Source: Pantoea sp. At-9b (lineage in GTDB: Bacteria > Pseudomonadota > Gammaproteobacteria > Enterobacterales > Enterobacteriaceae). From it: a stretch of 64,000 bases of DNA. The position numbers and the translations under genes were made by a program. Under the pieces are notes generated by a model. The model had not been told where the DNA came from and ran no database searches. It was given only the letters and a program-made list of their open reading frames with translations. Below, one piece after another: positions 31,906 through 44,637 of the stretch. Where the stretch lies: contig NC_014837.1 in NCBI RefSeq assembly GCF_000175935.2, forward strand, positions 1,116,001-1,180,000. Reading direction: 5' to 3'. The first letter of the stretch is position 1, and each line of letters starts with the position of its first letter.

Positions 31906-31982
31906 GCGCCCTTAGCTCAGCTGGATAGAGCACCGGCCTTCTAAGCCGTAGGTCACAGGTTCGAATCCTGTAGGGCGTGCCA
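31906..31982 (+). tRNA. argU: tRNA-Arg (anticodon UCU)
   Basis: A complete 77-nt tRNA with encoded CCA. Acceptor GCGCCCU pairs with AGGGCGU, the D-arm reads AGCTCAGCTGGATAGAGC, the anticodon TCT is at 31940-31942 in loop CTTCTAA, and the T-loop is TTCGAAT. It closely follows E. coli argU, which decodes the rare AGA codon. The base of the anticodon stem has a C27-U43 mismatch. The 3' end is the apparent integration site of the integrase 150 bp downstream, as for the DLP12 prophage at E. coli argU. Part of its anticodon arm is copied in the island at 42596-42622. Confidence 0.97.
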
Positions 31983-32135
31983 TCTCCTCTTCTTCTCAAC
32001 TCTTTTTTCATCTGTGAATTCCCTCTAACTCCTTGCCAATGCTGCATTCCTGGTCTTTTGATTTCTATTCGGTTCCGCTAAAAACTTTACTTCCTTGGGG
32101 ACACTGGCCTGTTCAATGGAGTGAAATGCCCCCAA

Positions 32136-33329
32136 ATGAAGCTCAACGTCCGTCAAATCGAGACTGCCAAGCCGAAAGACAAAGCCTGGAAACTGGCTGA
32201 CGGCGGTGGTCTGTACCTCGAAATCTTCCCCACTGGTGGTAAAAGCTGGCGGCTGAAATACCGCTTTGCAGGAAAAGAAAAGCGCGTGGTGTTTGGCCTC
32301 TATCCTGCGGTTACGCTGGCGCAGGCGCGCGGAAAGCGCGAAGACGCGAAAAGGATACTCGCAGCCGGTGGTGATCCCGGCGCGGCCAAGCAGGAAGCGA
32401 AGCAGGCCAAAATCCTCGCGGTTAACAACAACTTTGAAGCGATGGCGCGGGAATGGCATGGGACAAAGCGGGCTAACTGGTCGCAAGGCTATGCTGACGA
32501 CATTCTGGAATACCTGCGCAAAGATATTTTTCCTCATATCGGCAAAATGCCGGTCACTGAAATCACACCGATGCTGATGCTGGCGGTGCTGCGGAAAATG
32601 GAACAACGCGGCGTGCTGGATAAGCTGAAGAAAACCCGCCAGGCGTGTAGTCAGATTTATGTCTACGCCATTGTTACTGGCAGGGCGGAGTACAACCCCG
32701 TTTCTGAACTGGCGGGTGCACTGAAATCCCCGAAGCAGAAGCATTTTCCTCATCTGTTGAATAACGAGATAGGCGCGTTTCTGCGCGCGTTGTGTGGCTA
32801 TAGCGGCAGTAAGATGACTCAGTACGCCACGCGGTTGCTGATGCTGACAGGGACGCGAACTATTGAGTTACGCGCTGCGGAGTGGCGTGAGTTCGATTTA
32901 AGTAAAGGACTCTGGGAGATCCCCGAAGGGCGCATGAAGATGCGGCGTAAGCATTCGGTGCCGCTGTCGCGCCAGGCTGTTGAGTTGCTGGAAGAGATCC
33001 AGCAGCTCACCGGGCGCGGGAAGTATGTGTTTCCGGGCAGGAGCAATGCCGGTAAGCCGATGAGTGAAGCCACGATTAATCAGGTGATCAAACGGGTTGG
33101 CTATGATGGCCGGGCAACCGGACATGGGTTCCGGCATACCATGAGCACGGTTTTGCATGAGCAGGGGTATAACTCTGCGTGGATTGAAGTGCAGCTTGCA
33201 CATGTGGACAAGAATTCGATTCGCGGGACGTACAACCATGCGCAGTACCTGGATGGGCGGCGGGAGATGTTGCAGTGGTATGCGGATTATTTGGATGGGT
33301 TGCGGGATGGGGGTAATCAAAAGGGATAG
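32136..33329 (+). CDS. P4-type tyrosine integrase
   Basis: A 397-residue tyrosine recombinase with the N-terminal DUF4102 arm-binding domain (MKLNVRQIETAKPKDKAWKL), SAM-like core-binding domain, and catalytic domain. Catalytic residues are visible in TGTRTIELRAAEW (Arg), HGFRHTMST (His-x-x-Arg) and the nucleophile Tyr in TYNHAQYLDG. It sits directly downstream of tRNA-Arg and reads away from it, the standard layout at the left end of a tRNA-inserted island. The ATG at 32136 is preferred over a GTG five codons upstream. It appears intact, so excision might still be possible if a right att site exists. Confidence 0.94.
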   Translation: MKLNVRQIETAKPKDKAWKLADGGGLYLEIFPTGGKSWRLKYRFAGKEKRVVFGLYPAVTLAQARGKREDAKRILAAGGDPGAAKQEAKQAKILAVNNNFEAMAREWHGTKRANWSQGYADDILEYLRKDIFPHIGKMPVTEITPMLMLAVLRKMEQRGVLDKLKKTRQACSQIYVYAIVTGRAEYNPVSELAGALKSPKQKHFPHLLNNEIGAFLRALCGYSGSKMTQYATRLLMLTGTRTIELRAAEWREFDLSKGLWEIPEGRMKMRRKHSVPLSRQAVELLEEIQQLTGRGKYVFPGRSNAGKPMSEATINQVIKRVGYDGRATGHGFRHTMSTVLHEQGYNSAWIEVQLAHVDKNSIRGTYNHAQYLDGRREMLQWYADYLDGLRDGGNQKG

Positions 33330-33781: not shown

Positions 33782-34570
33782 ATGGAGGTTGCATTGATCG
33801 TTCCTCTTCAAAAACAAACTGAGGCTGGAAAGCTGTACACACGCTTACCTGAAACCGAAACTAGGTTAGTGGAATTAAGCACTCTTCCAGATAAGGATTT
33901 GATCGAACTGTGCAAGCAGAGCAAGACACATCCGCAATATGTGCCCAGTGAATGTCTTCTTTACTTCGTCCGACGCAGCGCACCGACCAATCAAACTCTT
34001 TTTGACCCGCTCTTCAGGATTCTCTCAGAACGAATTTTCAGGAAACTTCCTCGAACCGTCAATCCAGGCGGAAACTCAGTGTCAATGCTGAACAGCGACG
34101 TTCAGGAGAGTGTTCTTGACCGTTTCGTTGAGATGCTTATGCTTGATAAAGTAGGGTATGAAGAGCGGTTGGACATTTTTGAATTGCGTTTTGACATGGC
34201 TTTTTTAAGTTTAAAAAAAGATGCCTTTCAGAAGTCTTATCGGTCAGAGAAAAGAAATACTGAGCTGGAATACAATGATTCAGAGGACATCACTTCAGAG
34301 GTTGAAGCAGTTTCTGAAGGTTATAATCCTTTTGAGGAAACAGATCTCAATAATTTTCATTACTGTCGCAAGCTTGATGCGACGATTGAGACTTTACCCG
34401 ATCTACAAAAGCGAATCATTGAGATGATCCGATTAGATTTTCCGATAGACTCCATCGACCCAAATGAGATGACGATTTCCAAGGCTCTTAACAAGTCTGA
34501 AAAGACCATCCATAATCAGAAAAATAAGGCGTTTGCACGTCTGCTTAAACTGCTTGAAGGGGGAATATGA
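33782..34570 (+). CDS. sigma-70-like HTH protein, first gene of the Ubl operon
   Basis: A 262-residue soluble protein. The C-terminal 60 residues look like sigma region 4 (LPDLQKRIIEMIRLDF, then TISKALNKSEKTIHNQKNKA as helix-turn-helix). The middle (EERLDIFELRFDMAFLSLKK) could be a degenerate region 2, but I cannot confirm it. Role: probably a dedicated transcription factor for the operon. Start choice: ATG 33782 has no ribosome site, while in-frame TTG at 33794 has GGAGG with a 5-nt spacer, so the real protein may begin there. It overlaps the next gene by 4 bp (ATGATG junction). The gene is AT-richer than the core. Confidence 0.72.
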   Translation: MEVALIVPLQKQTEAGKLYTRLPETETRLVELSTLPDKDLIELCKQSKTHPQYVPSECLLYFVRRSAPTNQTLFDPLFRILSERIFRKLPRTVNPGGNSVSMLNSDVQESVLDRFVEMLMLDKVGYEERLDIFELRFDMAFLSLKKDAFQKSYRSEKRNTELEYNDSEDITSEVEAVSEGYNPFEETDLNNFHYCRKLDATIETLPDLQKRIIEMIRLDFPIDSIDPNEMTISKALNKSEKTIHNQKNKAFARLLKLLEGGI

Positions 34571-35148
34571 TGACTGGACTTTCACCTCAGGCATCCCTGG
34601 AAGAGGTACTTGAGTCATTTTCCATAGAGCATGATGTGGGAAAAGCGACTCTGCAAAAGTATCTTGCAGCCTTCCCCGAATATGCCAATGATCTCATTGA
34701 CCTGTCTCGTGAGATAGCCAGAATATCAATCGAAGATGAGGCGCCACTCTCTGAGTCCGAGCGCCGCATAATCAATTCTGCTGTCACTCGCATCCAGAAT
34801 TCACCGGGCAAAACAGCGGTGGATCCATTTGCTAACCTCTCAGCTCAAGAAATGCGGTCTCTCTCTAAATCACTGGATATACCTCGACAGGTAGTAATGG
34901 CATTCAAAGAGCGAAACGTAGTCGCCAAATCTGTTCCCCAAGGTTTTCTGGCCAGGTTAGCTGAACAACTTCAGGTCAGTGTGCAACAGCTATTTACCTC
35001 ACTCGAGCAGCCCCACATGGAGGTTGTAGGGAGTTATAAGTCCGATTCTAAACCGGGTGATGCAGAGAAGATTACTTTCGAACTACTGCTTCGGGATGCC
35101 GATATGTCTGAGGAAGAAATCAGGAACTTAATGGAAGAGGATAGATAA
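34567..35148 (+). CDS. small regulator-like protein with HTH-like C-terminal half
   Basis: A 193-residue acidic protein that I do not recognise by family. Residues 20-50 (KATLQKYLAAFPEYANDLID) are helical; residues 90-145 (SAQEMRSLSKSLDIPRQVVM and LARLAEQLQVSVQQLF) resemble HTH or antitoxin-type segments. Its position directly before an ImmA/IrrE-containing protein fits the common pair of a regulator and the metallopeptidase that cleaves it; this is inference. AAGGGGG precedes the overlapping start. It lies 1 bp before the next gene. Confidence 0.65.
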   Translation: MMTGLSPQASLEEVLESFSIEHDVGKATLQKYLAAFPEYANDLIDLSREIARISIEDEAPLSESERRIINSAVTRIQNSPGKTAVDPFANLSAQEMRSLSKSLDIPRQVVMAFKERNVVAKSVPQGFLARLAEQLQVSVQQLFTSLEQPHMEVVGSYKSDSKPGDAEKITFELLLRDADMSEEEIRNLMEEDR

Positions 35149-35149
35149 C

Positions 35150-38100
35150 GTGCAAGCAGTGGAACTGGCTCGCAAGGTCGCTGCTGCTCTACATGAACAG
35201 GCCGTTGATTCTGGACATAATCCATGGACTCCCTATGAGTTTGCTGTTGCGGAAGCAAAAAGACGAGGGCTTGATGTAGAGAGAACAAGAAAAGGATCGC
35301 CTAACCTGAGGGGCGCACGGGCTCGTTTTATCCCAGAGGAGAAGTTTATTCTCCACGAAAAATGCGCAACTCCTTTTGAGCAAGCATTCCTCGTAGCTCA
35401 TGAAATTGGTCACGCTGAACTTGGCGATGATGTCGAAGAGGATGAGCAGGGCTATACGACAGATCCCACAAGGACGTCGGAGACCTCCCCGCTGGGAGTT
35501 GAGCGAGTCGTAGATTACAGTCGCAGACAGCGAAGAGAGGTCCAGATGGATCTTTTTGCGCGCGAGTTTTTGCTACCTAGACATTTTGTTAGAACGCTTT
35601 ATCTGGAGGGCCAAAGTGCTTCAAGTATTGCCGAAAAGCTTGGAGCGCCATTTGACGTTGTTGCTCAACAACTTTTTGATGCACTACTGTTGCCCCCAAC
35701 TTTGCCTGAAAATCAAGAGTCAGCAATTGAATTTCCTTTAAACGATGAGCAGGCTAAAGCCGCAGCCCATCGTGGTGTTGCTTTTTTGCTTGAAGCCGGA
35801 CCTGGCACGGGAAAAACACAGACATTGGTAGGCCGTGTAAAAGGATTGCTTAATGAAGGGGTTGATCCCCGGAAAATTCTCTTGCTGACTTTTTCAAATA
35901 AAGCGGCAGGAGAAATGGCTGAAAGAATTGCGCGTGTCGATAGCGGTGCTGCAGCTGCAATGTGGATCGGTACCTTCCACTCATTCGGCCTCGATTTGGT
36001 TCGCCGGTTTCACGATAAGTTGAATCTGCCACAATCCCCCCGGATGTTGGATCGTACAGAAGCAGTAGAATTGCTGGAGCATGAGTTCCCAAAATTAGGA
36101 CTGGTTCATTACCGCAATCTTTATGATCCAAGCCGGATTATTGCGGATTTTCTCGCCGGCATTTCACGTGCTAAAGACGAGGTAGTCGATGCAAGCACCT
36201 ACCTGAAACTGGCGCAGGCCATGCGCGATAGCGCTGTTGAGAATGATGCTATTACCGATGCAGAGAAAGCGATTGAAGTCGCCAAGGTGTACGCAGCTTA
36301 TGAGAATCTTAAGCAACAGTCTGAATGTATAGACTTTGGGGATTTGGTTTCATTACCTGTAAAGCTACTTGAAGAAAATGAAGCTATTCGCTCCCATATC
36401 CAGTCTACCTATGAACACGTTTTGGTGGACGAATACCAGGATGTCAACCACAGCAGCGTGCGACTGCTGAAAGCTATATGTGGCAATGGTAATAATTTGT
36501 GGGCAGTTGGGGATGCTAAGCAGTCAATCTATCGTTTTAGAGGTGCCTCTTCATTTAACATGACGCGCTTTGGAAATGAAGATTTTCCAGGTGGGGTGCG
36601 ATATCGGTTAAAAATGAACTACCGATCTGTACCTGAAATAGTTTCAACATTTTCGAGATTTGCGGTGGGTATGGCTGTAGGGGATGCTGATAGCTGGCTA
36701 CGCCCCAATCGGGGCAGTAATGCCTGCAAACCCGAGCTTCGCTTTGTGGGACAAGGCGTTCAACAGTCACCAGCTCTTGCGGACGCTATACAGGAAATGC
36801 GAGGTGCCGGTTACCCATATCGTGATCAGGCCGTTCTCTGTACAGGCAACGAAAAACTCTCAGAAATTGGGCAACAACTTGAGCGTTTAGGCATCCCTGT
36901 TCTTTTCTTGGGCAGTGTTTTCGAGCGTCCAGAGATAAAGGATTGGCTGTCACTGCTTTCCCTTTTAGTGGATCGCCGCGCAATGGGCCTGGTGAGGATG
37001 GCTTGCCTGCCAGAATTTACGATGTCGCTGGAAGATGTCGGAAATATTCTTGCATGCCTGCGTGAAGAAGATGACTGGGGGGATTGGAGAGATAAAGTAA
37101 ATCAGTTCCAAATCTCTGCAAATGGCCGTACTGCCTTAAAGCGGCTGATTAAAACACTGGACGGTTTTAAAGGCGATACTTCACCCTGGACTGTGCTGGC
37201 CACTGTACTTTTAGACAGGACTCGTATTGTAGCTCGCCTGGCAACTTCCTCAGGTTGTAGTGACCGCTCCCAATGTATTGCAACCTGGCAGTTACTTAAT
37301 TTCTTGCGAGTCCAGCCCTCAACTGGCGAAGGGTTATTTATCACTCGCACATTAGATCGCATCCGCCGTTTAGTCCGACTCGGGGACGATCGTGACCTCA
37401 GGCAACTCCCGGTAGTAGCACAAAGCATTGACGCGGTTCGCCTCATGACTATACATGGCTCAAAAGGGCTTGAATTTCCTGTGGTCCATGTCCCGGGGAT
37501 GAATGCAGATACCCTTCCTGGTTATACGCAAAAGCAAGCCTGCCCACCACCCGATGGGATGATAGCTGGAAGTAAGGCTAATGCCAGGGAGCAGTTTAGT
37601 CTGGAGCACAAGGCGGAAAGAGAATGCTTATTCTATGTTGCATTGTCGAGAGCCAGGGACCAGTTATTCCTCTATGCTGCACTACGAAACGCTGCAGGTA
37701 GTACTCGAAGGAAATCTGAGTATCTGGATCGTATTGAGCCCAATCTGATTCAAAGAAACATAGAGCCTCATCATCCGGTCATTGAGCCTCCTGAATCTTT
37801 ACCAATAGACTGGGTTGCGGATGGAGAATTCAAACTTAGTGGCGATCAGGTCTCCCTCTATGAATCTTGTCCTCGACGATTTTTCTATACTCACGTCCTT
37901 CAAATCGGGGGGCGACGATCACCAACCCCATTCTCAAAAATGCACGATGCTGTCCGAAAAGTGTTCAGGGATATGATCGAGGCAGAGTCTACGATAATTA
38001 CGAATATAGAAGGCAGCGTTGAGCAAGCTCTCAAAGTTGAAGGTCTGGCTGAGCACGGATATGCCCCTGAGTTTAAGTCTCTGGCACTTGACATGGTTAG

Positions 38101-38542
38101 ATATTTTAATTCAATTCGCGAAGGTCATGCCCCTGAAACACCCAGTGTACTCACGATGAAGTTTGGGGATATTCCTATCACTGTACAACCTGACGATGTG
38201 TTGATTTACTCAGATGGGCGACGTACTTTTCGCCGGGTTAGAACCGGACATAAAAGAGATAAAGAAGAATCGGACCTTGGCGCAGCCGCTTTTATACTGG
38301 CAGCACGGAGAGCCTTTCCTGACGCGATAGTGGAGTTAGTTCATCTTTCTGATAAGACTGTAACGCCGATTGATCTGAGCACTAAGGTGCTACATAACCG
38401 GCAGGAAAAGCTTCATGTTGCCTTAGACTCTATAAGCCGGGGTGTATTTCCCGCCGAATCATCATCCCGGGTCTGTCCCTCCTGCCCGGCATTTTTCGTC
38501 TGCGGATTGACCCCTCCAGGCGCGCTTCAAAAAAAATTCTAA
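35150..38542 (+). CDS. ImmA/IrrE protease - UvrD helicase - PD-(D/E)XK-type nuclease fusion
   Basis: An 1130-residue three-part protein. Residues 1-180: ImmA/IrrE metallopeptidase with HEIGH (84-88) and FAREFLLP near 140; the usual third ligand position is Gln132, with Glu130 nearby. Residues 195-880: superfamily 1 helicase with Walker A AGPGTGKTQT (216-225), LLLTFSNKAAGEMAERI, DEYQD (427-431), GDAKQSIYRFRGA, GSKGLEF (770-776) and VALSRARDQL. Residues 890-1130: AddB/RecB-like nuclease with Fe-S Cys at 907, 1109, 1112 and 1118 (CPRRFFY; C-x2-C-x5-C). The expected catalytic D...(D/E)xK is unusual: QPDDVLIYSDG is followed by RRVRTGHK rather than a xxK strand. Start is GTG at 35150, with GAAGAGG 9 nt upstream. 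Probable job: sensing or processing DNA, with the protease acting on a partner such as the preceding regulator. Confidence 0.88.
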   Translation: MQAVELARKVAAALHEQAVDSGHNPWTPYEFAVAEAKRRGLDVERTRKGSPNLRGARARFIPEEKFILHEKCATPFEQAFLVAHEIGHAELGDDVEEDEQGYTTDPTRTSETSPLGVERVVDYSRRQRREVQMDLFAREFLLPRHFVRTLYLEGQSASSIAEKLGAPFDVVAQQLFDALLLPPTLPENQESAIEFPLNDEQAKAAAHRGVAFLLEAGPGTGKTQTLVGRVKGLLNEGVDPRKILLLTFSNKAAGEMAERIARVDSGAAAAMWIGTFHSFGLDLVRRFHDKLNLPQSPRMLDRTEAVELLEHEFPKLGLVHYRNLYDPSRIIADFLAGISRAKDEVVDASTYLKLAQAMRDSAVENDAITDAEKAIEVAKVYAAYENLKQQSECIDFGDLVSLPVKLLEENEAIRSHIQSTYEHVLVDEYQDVNHSSVRLLKAICGNGNNLWAVGDAKQSIYRFRGASSFNMTRFGNEDFPGGVRYRLKMNYRSVPEIVSTFSRFAVGMAVGDADSWLRPNRGSNACKPELRFVGQGVQQSPALADAIQEMRGAGYPYRDQAVLCTGNEKLSEIGQQLERLGIPVLFLGSVFERPEIKDWLSLLSLLVDRRAMGLVRMACLPEFTMSLEDVGNILACLREEDDWGDWRDKVNQFQISANGRTALKRLIKTLDGFKGDTSPWTVLATVLLDRTRIVARLATSSGCSDRSQCIATWQLLNFLRVQPSTGEGLFITRTLDRIRRLVRLGDDRDLRQLPVVAQSIDAVRLMTIHGSKGLEFPVVHVPGMNADTLPGYTQKQACPPPDGMIAGSKANAREQFSLEHKAERECLFYVALSRARDQLFLYAALRNAAGSTRRKSEYLDRIEPNLIQRNIEPHHPVIEPPESLPIDWVADGEFKLSGDQVSLYESCPRRFFYTHVLQIGGRRSPTPFSKMHDAVRKVFRDMIEAESTIITNIEGSVEQALKVEGLAEHGYAPEFKSLALDMVRYFNSIREGHAPETPSVLTMKFGDIPITVQPDDVLIYSDGRRTFRRVRTGHKRDKEESDLGAAAFILAARRAFPDAIVELVHLSDKTVTPIDLSTKVLHNRQEKLHVALDSISRGVFPAESSSRVCPSCPAFFVCGLTPPGALQKKF

Positions 38543-38625
38543 AATAATTTACCGCTTTGGTAGAGCTGCATCGATTGAGTATTAGAGCCAGACATCATCT
38601 GGCCAAACTCAAGGATATGCAAAAC

Positions 38626-39381
38626 ATGAACAGCCAAAATATTAACAATATCGACGATGTCGGAGAAGCGATTCGCGAAGGCCGCGAGCTGCGTCCGGCA
38701 AATGCCTACCGCATCCTGTTTGCGCAGGAAAACCTGGATTTTCACGCAATTGTAGTCAATGACCCAGTTCCACTGGGTCGACAAATTCTGATTGCTGCGG
38801 GTCTGCGTGCAAATGATGACTATAGCCTCTTCGCCATTCTTCAGACGGGAGACTTTGAAGATCTGCGCCTTGATGAACCTTTCGATTTACGCGGTCATGG
38901 CGCTGAACGTTTCGTGGCCTTCCAGACCGATCGTGATTTCAAACTTACTGTAAACGACAGCCAAGTATCATGGGGTAAACCTGCAATTTCGGGGGCAGCA
39001 CTTTATGAACTGGCAAAACCAGGCGACGGCGATGCCGTATTTATGGTTATCCGTGGTGGTGATGATCGCCAGATTGAACCGAATGAGGCGGTGGATCTTA
39101 CGACTCCGGGAATTGAACACTTTGTAACGGCGCCAAAGCGTAAACCAAAGATTGATATCGTCGTTAATGGACGTGAAGTTCAGGTCAGCGATAGTCATCA
39201 AACTTTCGAGCAATTTGTGGCTATCGCATATCCAGGTGAAGCCCCAACTGCTGAGATCGTATATTCAATTACATATCGTGGAGCGAGCTCAAAACCACAC
39301 AGTGGTGAGTTAGCTGCAGGTGCCTTTATCGAAGTGAAAAATGGGAGCGTAATCAATGTCGGCCGCACCATTCAATCTTAA
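38626..39381 (+). CDS. multi-ubiquitin protein with three tandem ubiquitin-like domains
   Basis: A 251-residue protein made of three beta-grasp (multi-ubiquitin family) repeats at about 25-100, 104-168 and 174-251. The first two share an obvious pattern: DLRLDEPFDLRGHGAERFV and QIEPNEAVDLTTPGIEHFV; the third ends SGELAAGAFIEVKNGSVINV. The C-terminus is GRTIQS and has no Gly-Gly, so it must be used as it is or trimmed. Start: ATG 38626 is 10 nt after AAGGA; ATG 38617 is too close and the TTG at 38557 has no site. The 83-bp gap before it is the largest in the operon. It overlaps the E1-like gene by 26 bp. Role: the modifier to be conjugated. Confidence 0.85.
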   Translation: MNSQNINNIDDVGEAIREGRELRPANAYRILFAQENLDFHAIVVNDPVPLGRQILIAAGLRANDDYSLFAILQTGDFEDLRLDEPFDLRGHGAERFVAFQTDRDFKLTVNDSQVSWGKPAISGAALYELAKPGDGDAVFMVIRGGDDRQIEPNEAVDLTTPGIEHFVTAPKRKPKIDIVVNGREVQVSDSHQTFEQFVAIAYPGEAPTAEIVYSITYRGASSKPHSGELAAGAFIEVKNGSVINVGRTIQS

Positions 39382-40531
39382 TAGCGATCTGAAGCGCTTG
39401 CGCGAAGAAGGTTACCACGTACACATTGTGGGTGGTTTCCTGGTCATGCGTGACGTGCCTTATGTTAACGCGCAACGGGAAGTTAAAACCGGCACGCTTA
39501 TATCGAGCCTTTGCATGTCTGGCGACGTTACTCAAAAACCAGAACCACATACAATTCACTTTGATGGAGAATTTCCATGCACTTCCCAGGGGGGACGCAT
39601 TCAGGCTATTTTTCATCAGAGTGAAGCAGTAAATCTTGGGCATGGACTGTCTGCTCAGCACTTATTCTCCAGTAAGCCAGGGCCTGAAGGTTATAGTGAC
39701 TACCATCAGAAGATGTCCACCTATGCGACGATCATTTCTGGCCACGCCGCAACCCTCAAACCTGGCGTTAGTCCACGTGTTTTTAAAACCCCTGATGAGG
39801 AGGAAGGGGGCGTATTTAACTATCTTGAAACTGCATCTGACCGGGTCGGGATCGGGGCATTAACTGCACGACTTGAAGGTCAGCACATTGCCATCATTGG
39901 AGTCGGTGGCACAGGTTCCTACATACTGGACCAAATAGCTAAAACGCCGGTTAGTGAGATACGTCTCATCGATGGTGATGATTTTCTTCAGCACAACGCT
40001 TTTCGCGCACCTGGCGCCCCGTCCATTAACACTCTCAGGGAAGTGCCGAAGAAAGTAGATTACTTGGCGGGAATTTACGGTCAGATGCACCGGCATATCG
40101 TTACGCATGCAGTACAGATAAGCCTGGATAATCTTAATCTCTTGGATGGAATCACCTTTGCCTTCCTTTGCATGGACGCAGGTGAGCCAAAACGTTTAGC
40201 GATGCAAAAGCTGGAAGATATGGGTGTGTCATTCGTAGACGTGGGAATGGGGCTGGAGTTGGTGGATGGATCGCTTGGTGGCATCCTGAGGGTGACGACC
40301 AGCACTCCAGAGAAGCGTGAACATATTCGCACCCGTGTGTCTTTCAAGGAGAGTGGCGCAGAAAATGTTTACGCTTCAAATATTCAAGTCGCCGAGTTAA
40401 ATATGTTGAATGCAGCACTTGCCGTAATCAAATGGAAGAAACTCCTCGGCTTTTATCGTGATCTTGAAAATGAGCACCATTGTTCCTATACGACTGACGG
40501 GAATATGTTGCTTAACGGTGACTCGATATGA
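39356..40531 (+). CDS. E2-like (DUF6791-type) + ThiF E1-like adenylyltransferase fusion
   Basis: A 391-residue protein. Residues 1-150 look like the E2-related domain often fused to such ThiF proteins (KPEPHTIHFDGEFPC at 61-75). Residues 160-391 are a ThiF/E1 adenylation domain: IAIIGVGGTGSYI (179-190), acidic loop RLIDGDDF, HN..R at 213-217, and CMDAGEPKRLAM near 272. Expected reaction: ATP-dependent adenylation of the modifier C-terminus and transfer through the E2-like part. I see no clear E1 catalytic Cys motif; Cys53, Cys75 and Cys272 are candidates, and a Ser/Thr intermediate cannot be excluded. It overlaps the modifier gene by 26 bp and the next gene by 4 bp. Confidence 0.82.
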   Translation: MSAAPFNLNSDLKRLREEGYHVHIVGGFLVMRDVPYVNAQREVKTGTLISSLCMSGDVTQKPEPHTIHFDGEFPCTSQGGRIQAIFHQSEAVNLGHGLSAQHLFSSKPGPEGYSDYHQKMSTYATIISGHAATLKPGVSPRVFKTPDEEEGGVFNYLETASDRVGIGALTARLEGQHIAIIGVGGTGSYILDQIAKTPVSEIRLIDGDDFLQHNAFRAPGAPSINTLREVPKKVDYLAGIYGQMHRHIVTHAVQISLDNLNLLDGITFAFLCMDAGEPKRLAMQKLEDMGVSFVDVGMGLELVDGSLGGILRVTTSTPEKREHIRTRVSFKESGAENVYASNIQVAELNMLNAALAVIKWKKLLGFYRDLENEHHCSYTTDGNMLLNGDSI

Positions 40532-40986
40532 TGCGTCATAGCCAGCTTACCCCCTGCTTCGTAAAGGGGGTTCCGCGCCAACTTGAACCTGGCATGTTGT
40601 ACGTTTCAATGGAGTACGGCACCGTGGTCCACTGTTGCTGTTGCGGCTGTGGCCTTGAAGTAGTCACACCGCTGACTCCAACGGACTGGAAGCTAACATT
40701 TGACGGCGAGACAATATCACTTTGGCCATCGGTCGGTAACTGGAACCTGCCCTGTAGATCGCACTATGTGATTCAAGGTAACCGGGTGATAGAAGCTGGT
40801 CCCTGGGACAAAGCTAAGATTGATGCGGAGAAGCGTCGCGACAAAGCGGCTAAGGCGCGCTATTACTCACAAACTGAATCGAATGCAGCTGCTGATGAGT
40901 TGAAACAGAAACCTATCAATGTGCCCGCTGGAACAATGGCCAATAAGGAGACCATTTGGGCCAAGTTACGTCGGTGGTTGGGTTAG
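40528..40986 (+). CDS. DUF6527-type Cys-rich protein of the Ubl operon
   Basis: A 152-residue protein resembling the DUF6527 family. Residues 20-92 are the conserved core: EPGMLYVSMEYGTVVH, the Cys cluster HCCCCGCG (35-42), TDWKLTFDGETISL, and PCRSHY (75-80). The Cys residues probably bind zinc, and the Ser-His pair of RSHY could be catalytic. I recall reports that such proteins act as proteases that mature or remove the modifier in related operons, which I cannot check here. The last 50 residues are a charged linker and an amphipathic end (IWAKLRRWLG). Its start lies in an ATGATG overlap with the E1-like gene. Last gene of the operon. Confidence 0.78.
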   Translation: MMRHSQLTPCFVKGVPRQLEPGMLYVSMEYGTVVHCCCCGCGLEVVTPLTPTDWKLTFDGETISLWPSVGNWNLPCRSHYVIQGNRVIEAGPWDKAKIDAEKRRDKAAKARYYSQTESNAAADELKQKPINVPAGTMANKETIWAKLRRWLG

Positions 40987-43970: not shown

Positions 43971-44330
43971 ATGCGTGTGTTCAAAACAAAATGGTTTACC
44001 AAGGCAGCTAAATCGCATGCCATCAGAGATAGCGAGCTATGTCAGGCCATAATGGATGTTGTTGAAGGTAAAGGCGATAACCTAGGTGGTGGAGTATACA
44101 AAAAGCGCTTGAACCACAATCGTGACCGCTCAATCATTTTGGCGAAAGGCGGGACACGCTGGATATACGCTTTTCTGTTTGCCAAGCAGGACATGGCAAA
44201 CATTGATTCTCAGGAACTATCTGGGTTTCGTGAACTGGCAAAGCATTACGCTGCTCTCTCAGATCAGAACATTGCAGCACTCATGAAGATTAAAGAACTG
44301 GTGGAGATTTGCCATGACTGCAAAAACTAA
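43971..44330 (+). CDS. RelE/HigB-type toxin
   Basis: A 119-residue protein of the RelE-like toxin group found with NadS-type antitoxins. The N-terminus MRVFKTKWFTKAAK and the central strand block (GGGVYKKRLNHNRDRSIILA, then TRWIYAFLFAKQDMANI) carry the basic residues expected of ribosome-dependent mRNA interferases. The toxin-first order and the 17-bp overlap with the downstream HTH gene are typical. Probably helps keep the island in place. Confidence 0.83.
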   Translation: MRVFKTKWFTKAAKSHAIRDSELCQAIMDVVEGKGDNLGGGVYKKRLNHNRDRSIILAKGGTRWIYAFLFAKQDMANIDSQELSGFRELAKHYAALSDQNIAALMKIKELVEICHDCKN

Positions 44331-44637
44331 ATTCAAAAGCCCTGCATTTGAAGCTATCCATAGTGCAGCTGCCGGTATGTTTAAAGCTGGTGTGATCCCA
44401 CAGGAAACCATGCGTAGCTTTGATGCAACCTGCATCGAAGATGTGGAAGAACTACAACCATCTGAAATAAAAAGATTACGTGAAAAGCTCAACGTGAGTC
44501 AGCCGGTTTTCGCTCGTTATCTGAATACTAGCGTTTCGACTATTCAGAAATGGGAAACAGGGATGAAGCGCCCAAGCGGGATGTCTTTGAAGCTGCTCTC
44601 TGTTGTGCAAAAGCATGGGCTGGAAGTGTTAATTTAA
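44314..44637 (+). CDS. HTH (XRE/NadS-type) antitoxin
   Basis: A 107-residue DNA-binding protein. The C-terminal XRE helix-turn-helix is clear (IKRLREKLNVSQPVFARYLN then TSVSTIQKWETGMKRPSG). It partners the overlapping RelE-like toxin and likely binds the palindrome upstream of the pair. Start ATG 44314 lies inside the toxin gene. Confidence 0.85.
   Translation: MTAKTKFKSPAFEAIHSAAAGMFKAGVIPQETMRSFDATCIEDVEELQPSEIKRLREKLNVSQPVFARYLNTSVSTIQKWETGMKRPSGMSLKLLSVVQKHGLEVLI

Follow-up and report, generated by a model that had tools for sequence, protein, structure and literature searches.

Why does a ubiquitin-like conjugation cassette stand directly behind a sigma-like gene, a small gene and a protease-helicase fusion in the genome of Pantoea sp. 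At-9b, and do these genes belong to one system or two? The six genes occupy positions 33782-40986 of the window, i.e., the whole 64,000-nucleotide stretch analysed here (assembly GCF_000175935.2, contig NC_014837.1, positions 1,116,001 to 1,180,000). A first-pass annotation, made from the sequence alone, had read them as a single operon with a possible role in phage defence, and had described what would make them two unrelated systems placed side by side. We find that genes 1-3 (hereafter the triad) and genes 4-6 (the cassette) look like two modules working together. The fusion encoded by gene 3 is nearly always found beside a ubiquitin-like (Ubl) cassette, and a two-box element in the gap between the two halves travels with the triad. 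We consider it somewhat probable that the whole is an immune operon, in which genes 1-3 would act as an expression switch triggered by damage or phage and genes 4-6 as the conjugation cassette.

The open reading frame (ORF) list of the window confirms the six genes on the plus strand and the junctions that the first-pass annotation had described: a 4 bp overlap, a 1 bp gap, an 83 bp gap, a 26 bp overlap and a 4 bp overlap. The ORF of gene 4 opens at 38557, and its start was placed at the ATG at 38626, as in its relatives. The features are as follows.

33782..34570, plus strand: gene 1, sigma-like protein of 262 aa, with a sigma-70 region-4 helix-turn-helix (HTH) at about residues 196-254 and no assigned domain in the N-terminal two thirds
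34567..35148, plus strand: gene 2, small protein of 193 aa with a possible Cro/CI-like HTH
35150..38542, plus strand: gene 3, fusion of 1130 aa of an M78 metallopeptidase, a UvrD helicase and a PD-(D/E)XK-like domain (Pfam)
35255..35674, plus strand: M78 (ImmA/IrrE) domain of gene 3 (Pfam Peptidase_M78, E 1.5e-14), with HEIGH at residues 84-88
35738..37675, plus strand: UvrD-type helicase domain of gene 3 (Pfam), with Walker A AGPGTGKT at 216-223 (K222) and DEYQDVN at 427-433
37835..38503, plus strand: PDDEXK_1-like domain of gene 3 (Pfam, E 1.3e-10), with Cys 907, 1109, 1112 and 1118, and R-V-R in place of (D/E)xK
38549-38578, plus strand: two-box promoter-like element TTACCGC-N16-CGATTGA, in the 83 bp gap that separates gene 3 from gene 4
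38626..39381, plus strand: gene 4, modifier with three ubiquitin-like repeats (Pfam Multi_ubiq)
39356..40531, plus strand: gene 5, DUF6791 (domain X) fused to a ThiF/E1-like adenylating domain (Pfam)
40528..40986, plus strand: gene 6, DUF6527 (Pfam)

The triad is nearly always found beside a ubiquitin-like cassette

Species genomes were searched with the helicase alignment alone (peptide patterns DEYQDVN and MTIHG[SA]KG), ignoring the neighbouring genes; all counts from this blind scan refer to its best 80 stretches, which are no census. Cassettes were sorted into four kinds: type A (DUF6791), type B (JAB-E1), type C (Bil-like) and type D (diverged Bil). Type C was assigned through the PADLOC Bil models in locus L020, whose proteins match BilA-D at E values of 3e-52 to 1e-166, and the others through profiles from L020 and L022. 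The M78-UvrD fusion is present in 49 of 79 loci, and 40 of these fusions have a Ubl cassette on the same strand within 6 kb downstream (12 A, 13 B, 14 C and 1 D). One more has a type B cassette beside it on the opposite strand, four lie at a contig edge (at most 111 bp left) and four have none. Overall, a cassette adjoins the fusion in 41 of the 45 loci with DNA left downstream. The 30 loci of the same scan that carry a generic UvrD, taken as a control, show no match to the modifier, to Bil, or to the X and Y proteins described below, and a single ThiF.

Across all fusions collected, 18 of which come from outside the blind scan (the window, 11 plasmid or E. coli loci and 6 sampled genomes), a cassette lies downstream in 57 of 67 (22 A, 18 C, 15 B and 2 D). 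It also follows the four strict fusions of a class sample of 385 genomes (1 A, 1 B and 2 C), in which two candidates were scored per genome and fusions may be missed. The arrangement recurs as well: genes 1 and 2 usually overlap by 4 bp, genes 2 and 3 usually lie within a few bp, and in 36 of the 43 loci measured, which cover all cassette kinds, gene 3 and the modifier are separated by 63-110 bp. The identical six-gene order is found on plasmids of K. pneumoniae, the cyanobacterium Leptolyngbya, A. fabrum (pTi) and Acinetobacter and on one E. coli chromosome. Of 5426 E. coli genomes, 3 gave any match, the other two being the remnants described below. Given this recurrence of the same genes in the same order, the set is, by sequence comparison, beyond chance.

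As to the co-occurrence that the first-pass annotation proposed to look for, the triad is nearly always beside a cassette, and the cassette is often found without the triad. In the phylum sample, genes 1-3 are present in 3 of 8 DUF6791 genomes (that of Pantoea included), the cassette standing alone in the other 5, and they accompany none of three strong BilD matches. The underlying BilD family search at E 1e-3 hit 179 of 398 genomes, mostly through the ThiF-like part, and the 5 best were followed. Among the multi-ubiquitin matches of the class sample, 1 of 7 type A loci has the triad. DUF6791-type cassettes elsewhere have upstream CapH/CapP-like pairs, a WYL gene, or nothing recognised: CapP-like proteases stand at 5 of the 10 type A loci without the triad in the genome samples, and the WYL gene at one plasmid locus. 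At triad loci neither a CapH+CapP pair nor that WYL gene was found, lone matches aside (a weak CapP-like one beside L027, a weak CapH-like one beside L058 and a CapP-like one 9 kb off in L069). This pattern suggests that the triad and the CapH+CapP pair or WYL gene are distributed as alternatives would be. We regard the linkage between triad and cassette as well supported.

A two-box element in the gap travels with the triad

The boxes of the element, TTACCGG-N16-CGATT, were derived from the gaps of 29 loci (17 type A, 11 type B and 1 type D), and the element was counted as present at 10 or more of 12 bases. Among the 63 of 67 loci with at least 150 bp after gene 3, the element stands behind the fusion in 46, against 0.021 expected per scanned window. 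It is found in 22/22 type A, 15/15 type B, 7/18 type C and 1/2 type D loci, and in one of six without a downstream cassette (L021), the counts for the gaps first read being partly true by construction. In the 34 loci unseen when the boxes were read, it occurs in 18, against 0.7 expected (A 5/5, B 4/4, C 7/18, D 1/1, none 1/6). Before cassettes lacking genes 1-3 it was found in 0 of 21 loci, a set that leaves aside L015, L172, L173, L183 and L184. The logo statistics of the element rest on 39 sites selected by the boxes. The window copy is the only exact match in the 6.3-Mb genome, in which places with one mismatch number 12, against 2 for a reversed control pattern. One such one-mismatch copy lies within gene 1 (window 34360-34389).

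According to the first-pass annotation, the six genes would be two unrelated systems if the cassette were regularly found without the first three genes and the gap held a terminator and a separate promoter. The cassette is indeed regularly found alone. In the gap there is a promoter-like element but no terminator was found, and the element goes with genes 1-3. Because the element travels with the triad (46/63 against 0/21) and the triad is nearly always by a Ubl cassette, we read the halves as two cooperating modules and reject the idea of unrelated systems. A search for an operator common to the gap and the 200 bp in front of gene 1 gave, in 11 of 14 type A loci, a score below the largest of 40 shuffles; L036 was above, and L008 and L041 equal to, that value.

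Gene 3 couples a protease to a helicase

Judged by their motifs, the protease and helicase sites of gene 3 are intact. The HEIGH motif and the Walker A lysine K222 are where the first-pass annotation had placed them; in the alignment of 57 fusions, HExxH is present in 55, and Walker A, DE and two arginine positions in all 57. The M78 domain resembles the CapP-like proteases of three plasmid loci with a cassette only (hhalign 96.5%, E 9e-10).

The nuclease named in the first-pass annotation fares less well. The four Cys of the PDDEXK_1-like domain are kept in 56/57 fusions, the remaining one (L059) being frame-broken at its C-terminus and left out of both the Cys and the (D/E)xK counts. In an alignment read by eye, (D/E)xK is absent from 56 of 56 in-frame rows, and we reject an active nuclease for this reason. 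Its position is occupied by R-[VI]-R-T-G or similar, and a weak PDB alignment to 9iab_A (E 0.34) sets VDFKTGK against RRVRTGK. Because of this substitution, the C-terminal domain is probably a pseudo-nuclease, a DNA-binding relic, although other catalytic solutions are conceivable; a relic of this kind would favour a sensor over a DNA-cutting effector.

Gene 3 matches GajB models of PADLOC at 6e-68 (of 55 models, the 25 listed are all helicase). It shares with Gabija GajB and with AddAB/RecB-type helicase-nucleases a UvrD motor and a nuclease-like C-terminal domain with four Cys, in an AddB-like pattern; it differs from them in lacking (D/E)xK and in carrying the fused N-terminal M78 domain. 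GajA models match none of genes 1, 2, 4, 5 and 6. No M78-UvrD fusion was found in IMG/VR, where the alignments of 30 helicase relatives start at residue 131 or later, and so past HEIGH.

Genes 1 and 2 as putative regulators

The window copy of gene 1 matches Pfam Sigma70_r4_2 weakly (E 0.0014, below the Pfam cut-off). In its family, aligned with the window copy included, 32 of 36 members match this model at E <=0.05 (best 2.2e-10), i.e., they have the region 4 expected of a sigma factor of the extracytoplasmic function (ECF) kind; GerE is matched by 5/36 and Sigma70_ECF by 4/36. Against PDB, the gene 1 profile finds FliA (E 2e-5), GerE (9e-5) and SigH (5.7e-4), plus LuxR-type HTHs, and its relatives are annotated some as sigma factors and some as response regulators or LuxR-type proteins. 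The two boxes with their 16-nt spacing resemble -35/-10 boxes. Because of this spacing and of the sigma region 4 in gene 1 relatives, gene 1 is the natural candidate for the reader of the element.

Gene 2 has no Pfam match above the cut-off, and its profile gave three PDB matches, all with E above 1 and none credible. It has a possible Cro/CI-like HTH at residues 90-144, aligned by hhalign with CapH-like HTHs at P 0.0013 and a probability of only 19%, and a loosely conserved tail, S-x-K-S-x-x-K-P (156-163). We propose that it may be the substrate of the M78 protease or an anti-sigma factor.

How the operon may work

Known controllers of immune operons offer a model. CapW, CapHP and CapKS regulate such operons, Bub among them, and CapP is reported to be activated by single-stranded DNA (ssDNA) and to cleave CapH (PMC13373217); the M78 protease PprI is likewise ssDNA-activated and cleaves a repressor (PMC10904395). 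Like CapH+CapP, the triad has an M78 protease with HExxH and a small HTH-like partner, and lies upstream of what would be an immune operon. It differs in that the protease shares one polypeptide with UvrD and a nuclease-like domain, is co-directional with the operon and comes with an added sigma-like gene. By analogy, the simplest reading would be a motor-coupled version of the CapP/PprI logic, with gene 2 as the antagonist. The UvrD motor, with its probably nuclease-dead Cys-containing domain, would engage aberrant DNA or ssDNA and so activate the fused metalloprotease. The protease would inactivate gene 2, whose loss would release or de-repress gene 1, and gene 1 would then drive transcription of the cassette from the two-box promoter in the gap. 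The cassette product would tag proteins, perhaps those of a phage, by analogy with Bil. We infer each of these functions, from ssDNA sensing, gene 2 cleavage and gene 1 sigma activity to promoter function of the element, conjugation by the cassette and the anti-phage outcome. The first-pass proposal that the halves are linked is supported, and the first genes most likely turn on the cassette in response to damage or infection, as that annotation had inferred.

Several observations weigh against this account, which is computational throughout and built on sequence comparison. A cassette is lacking in four of the 45 loci from the blind scan, namely L045, L055 (which has 1.7 kb of sequence downstream), L066 and L072, and Bil and other cassettes are mostly without the triad in the genome samples (0/3 Bil, 3/8 DUF6791). 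Part of the count concerns the very gaps from which the boxes had been derived (17 type A, 11 type B, 1 type D), and the exact element is missing in 11/18 Bil-type loci, including the M. brachiatum locus L062; the remaining Bil-type clades have diverged boxes at about the same spacing, by eye only. Predicted sigma-70 promoters number 11, against 11.2 expected, and terminators 7, against 7.4, with none in the gap, and the element could be an operator or an RNA feature. Gene 1 went undetected in several loci with distant fusions (e.g., L057, L060-L062, L069, L070 and L189), and the HTH of gene 2 is weak (19%). In favour of a defence setting, PADLOC models matched number 142 in the flanks of triad loci and 32 in control flanks, a rough comparison that counts models rather than proteins, scans 95/194 and 95/109 of the flank proteins, respectively, and has control loci largely from other phyla. 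Of the 142 model names, the 25 listed are AbiE, type I and II restriction-modification (R-M), Druantia methylase and mads; for the controls, 25 of 32 were listed.

The triad may also be a transcriptional module of another sort. Gene 1 would then bind the two-box element as a repressor or activator, with gene 2 as partner, and would itself be the target of M78 cleavage. Because no sigma region 2 was detected as such in the 36-member family and the HTH also resembles GerE/FixJ/NarL domains, gene 1 may be an activator or repressor, as the response-regulator and LuxR-type annotations of some relatives would have it. We consider this module as a whole rather unlikely: members of the gene 1 family match Sigma70_r4_2 far more often than GerE (32 against 5 of 36), further relatives are annotated as sigma factors, and the boxes look like -35/-10.

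A different role for the fusion is that of effector rather than sensor: the cassette would tag gene 3 or a DNA-bound complex, thereby activating the helicase or protease to act on phage DNA or a host protein, and genes 1-2 would only set expression. UvrD-like proteins are effectors in Gabija, and the GajB match of gene 3 recalls this. Fusion and cassette are co-directional in 57/67 loci and, in type A, their distances correlate (fusion vs E1, Mantel r 0.889, n=17 loci, 0/9999 permutations). Such a correlation is, however, also expected of a unit transferred as one block. Moreover, (D/E)xK is missing, most cassettes of the genome samples run without the fusion, and expression regulators replace it at cassettes of the same family. 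We consider an effector unlikely. The first-pass suggestion that the cassette modifies the helicase-nuclease is not supported, the evidence pointing neither way. That triad and cassette are unrelated and meet only through a shared defence-island habitat is very improbable: the cassette is common without the triad (5/8 DUF6791 genomes) and the neighbours include R-M and AbiE genes, but order, orientation and usually a similar gap persist with each of the four kinds of cassette and in several phyla, a cassette adjoins the fusion in 41 of the 45 loci from the blind scan, the element is shared and the generic UvrD controls are negative.

The cassette and its relation to known systems

The tagging cassette is already a known kind. 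Operon type 6e of Iyer, Burroughs and Aravind (2006, PMC1779556) consists of a polyUbl, an E1 with domain X and a metal-binding protein Y, and genes 4-6 have this make-up: three tandem Ubl repeats, an E1 whose N-terminal domain replaces JAB, and a small Cys-rich protein with C-x3-C, in one operon. As described there, type 6e is sporadic and mobile in proteobacteria and cyanobacteria, as here. The order of putative ligands differs, with C-x3-C...C-x2-H in gene 6 and H-x2-C printed for type 6e; the main text of that paper mentions neither helicase nor UvrD, and genes 1-3 were not found there. On our own reading, DUF6791 would be its domain X and DUF6527 its protein Y.

Gene 4 matches Multi_ubiq in three stretches (E 7e-52) and, in PDB, 9cd2, 8u38 (BilA), 9d5b and 9d59. 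It ends in ...TIQS. Ser is the last residue of DUF6791-type modifiers in 41 of 42 rows, mostly as ...T-x-[QKR]-S (the rows include one out-of-frame fragment from L053 and the identical E. coli copies L004-L006), and Bil-type modifiers end in Gly in 14/19. A conserved C-terminal Ser rather than Gly is unusual among ubiquitin-like modifiers.

For gene 5, described at first as an E2-like/ThiF fusion, the ThiF part is upheld by Pfam and the E2-like part is doubtful. Domain X has no PDB sequence match and no profile match to BilB or Prok-E2_E, and we do not take an E2 identity as shown. Its H65 (40/40 relatives), C75 (38/40), S105 and K107 (both 40/40) are conserved, the H65-x9-C75 spacing resembling that of E2. 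Gene 6 matches DUF6527 at E 6e-23 and has a metal-site-like C37-x3-C41...C76-x2-H79; C37, C39, C41, S68, C76, S78 and H79 are invariant in 41/41 close relatives, and a more distant copy in L023 is without S78 and C39. The DUF6527 profile found no match among PDB sequences, and Pfam no JAB in the window cassette. The DUF6527 protein of L006 (11169-11546) bears the RefSeq name 'ubiquitination-like system serine protease family protein'.

Bub (bacterial ubiquitination-like; Corbett laboratory), for which serine chemistry is possible, has the nearest E1: the E1 part of gene 5 has its best PDB match in Citrobacter BubCD (E 2.5e-11). The likeness is confined to this part, domain X being without a PDB match and the modifier matching Citrobacter BubA at E 0.62. 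Bub operons are associated with the ssDNA-responsive regulators CapW, CapH+CapP and CapK+CapS, and the regulators named in the portion of that paper considered here include no helicase-protease fusion (PMC13373217).

The ISG15-like system Bil (BilABCD) has anti-phage activity. Operons of the Bil type are among the cassettes that stand behind the triad, and the modifier of L062, encoded downstream of gene 2 and the fusion, is identical to PDB 8u38 BilA over 243 residues. The window cassette itself is not Bil: genes 4-6 match no BilA-D model, and its modifier ends in Ser, not Gly. Nor is it a CBASS-linked E1/E2 system (Cap2/Cap3), since the matches of gene 5 to E1-E2 models (best 3e-9) cover no more than part of the E1 region; CD-NTase models match none of genes 1, 2, 4, 5 and 6. 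As for the triad, the literature titles and abstract starts among the matches listed do not describe it; a prior description is possible, and priority for the controller and for its use by several cassette kinds, Bil included, is uncertain.

Cassettes are exchanged behind the triad

With the four cassette kinds and 'none' as labels, a tree of the 57 fusions of 1000 aa or more (of 67) needs 9 label changes; the branches with good support already require a minimum of 2 changes for A, 4 for B, 3 for C and 2 for D. The tree was made by a quick method with SH-aLRT support only and a midpoint root, and L066 and L019 sit on long branches. Cassettes have thus been exchanged repeatedly behind the triad. 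Within type A, the correlated fusion and E1 distances are as expected of a unit moving together. It is quite possible, if short of probable, that the triad represents a new class of immune controller, a motor-coupled proteolytic sigma switch fitted repeatedly to different Ubl cassettes (A, B, Bil and diverged Bil).

Genomic setting and variant loci

The operon lies on a stretch of lower G+C behind an integrase-like gene and a tRNA gene, in keeping with the integrase island of the first-pass annotation, and a mobile island carrying it is probable.

32121..33329, plus strand: integrase-like gene, named by eye; adjoins tRNA-Arg
31906-31982: tRNA-Arg(TCT), beside the integrase-like gene

No att repeats involving the tRNA were listed within 31880-60000. 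The same island has two overlapping genes at 43971-44637 which, by eye, look like a toxin-antitoxin pair of the RelE/HigB-HigA type. The K. pneumoniae plasmid copy (L007 14650-21201) adjoins Tn7-like transposition genes.

Some loci depart from the common layout. On a plasmid of Rhizobium beringeri (L019 3037-13540), the triad with a type D cassette (JAB + BilD-like) stands head to head with a DUF6791-type cassette lacking its own triad, so that two Ubl systems may share one switch. In an Acidovorax metagenome-assembled genome (L049 1442-9030), gene 2 and the fusion lie beside a JAB-E1 cassette on the opposite strand, and gene 1 was not found. Methylobacterium and Methylorubrum (L045 9349-13366, L055 9406-13423) have gene 2 and the fusion with no gene 1 match, two-box element or downstream cassette (L055 ends 1.7 kb on), possibly a relic or a different use. 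A P. koreensis plasmid (L021 7070-10992) retains triad and element, with an IS66 gene in the place of the cassette. The E. coli STEC383 and ES2 loci (L005, L006) are remnants cut by IS1, in which genes 4-6 survive, genes 1-2 are gone and gene 3 is missing in part or almost completely. A second helicase association is seen in L009 (10763-15484) and L018 (8283-14128), where a pair made up of a PD-(D/E)XK protein and a UvrD protein follows the DUF6791 cassette.

Implications

One neighbour module is shared by Bil-type, DUF6791/DUF6527 and JAB-E1 polyUbl operons, and this suggests that such Ubl systems can answer the same trigger. The triad offers a helicase-driven alternative to CapW, CapHP and CapKS, and the trigger of bacterial ubiquitin-like tagging becomes directly testable at the 83-bp gap. 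The fusion together with the two-box element also provides a search handle for further cassettes of the Ubl type.

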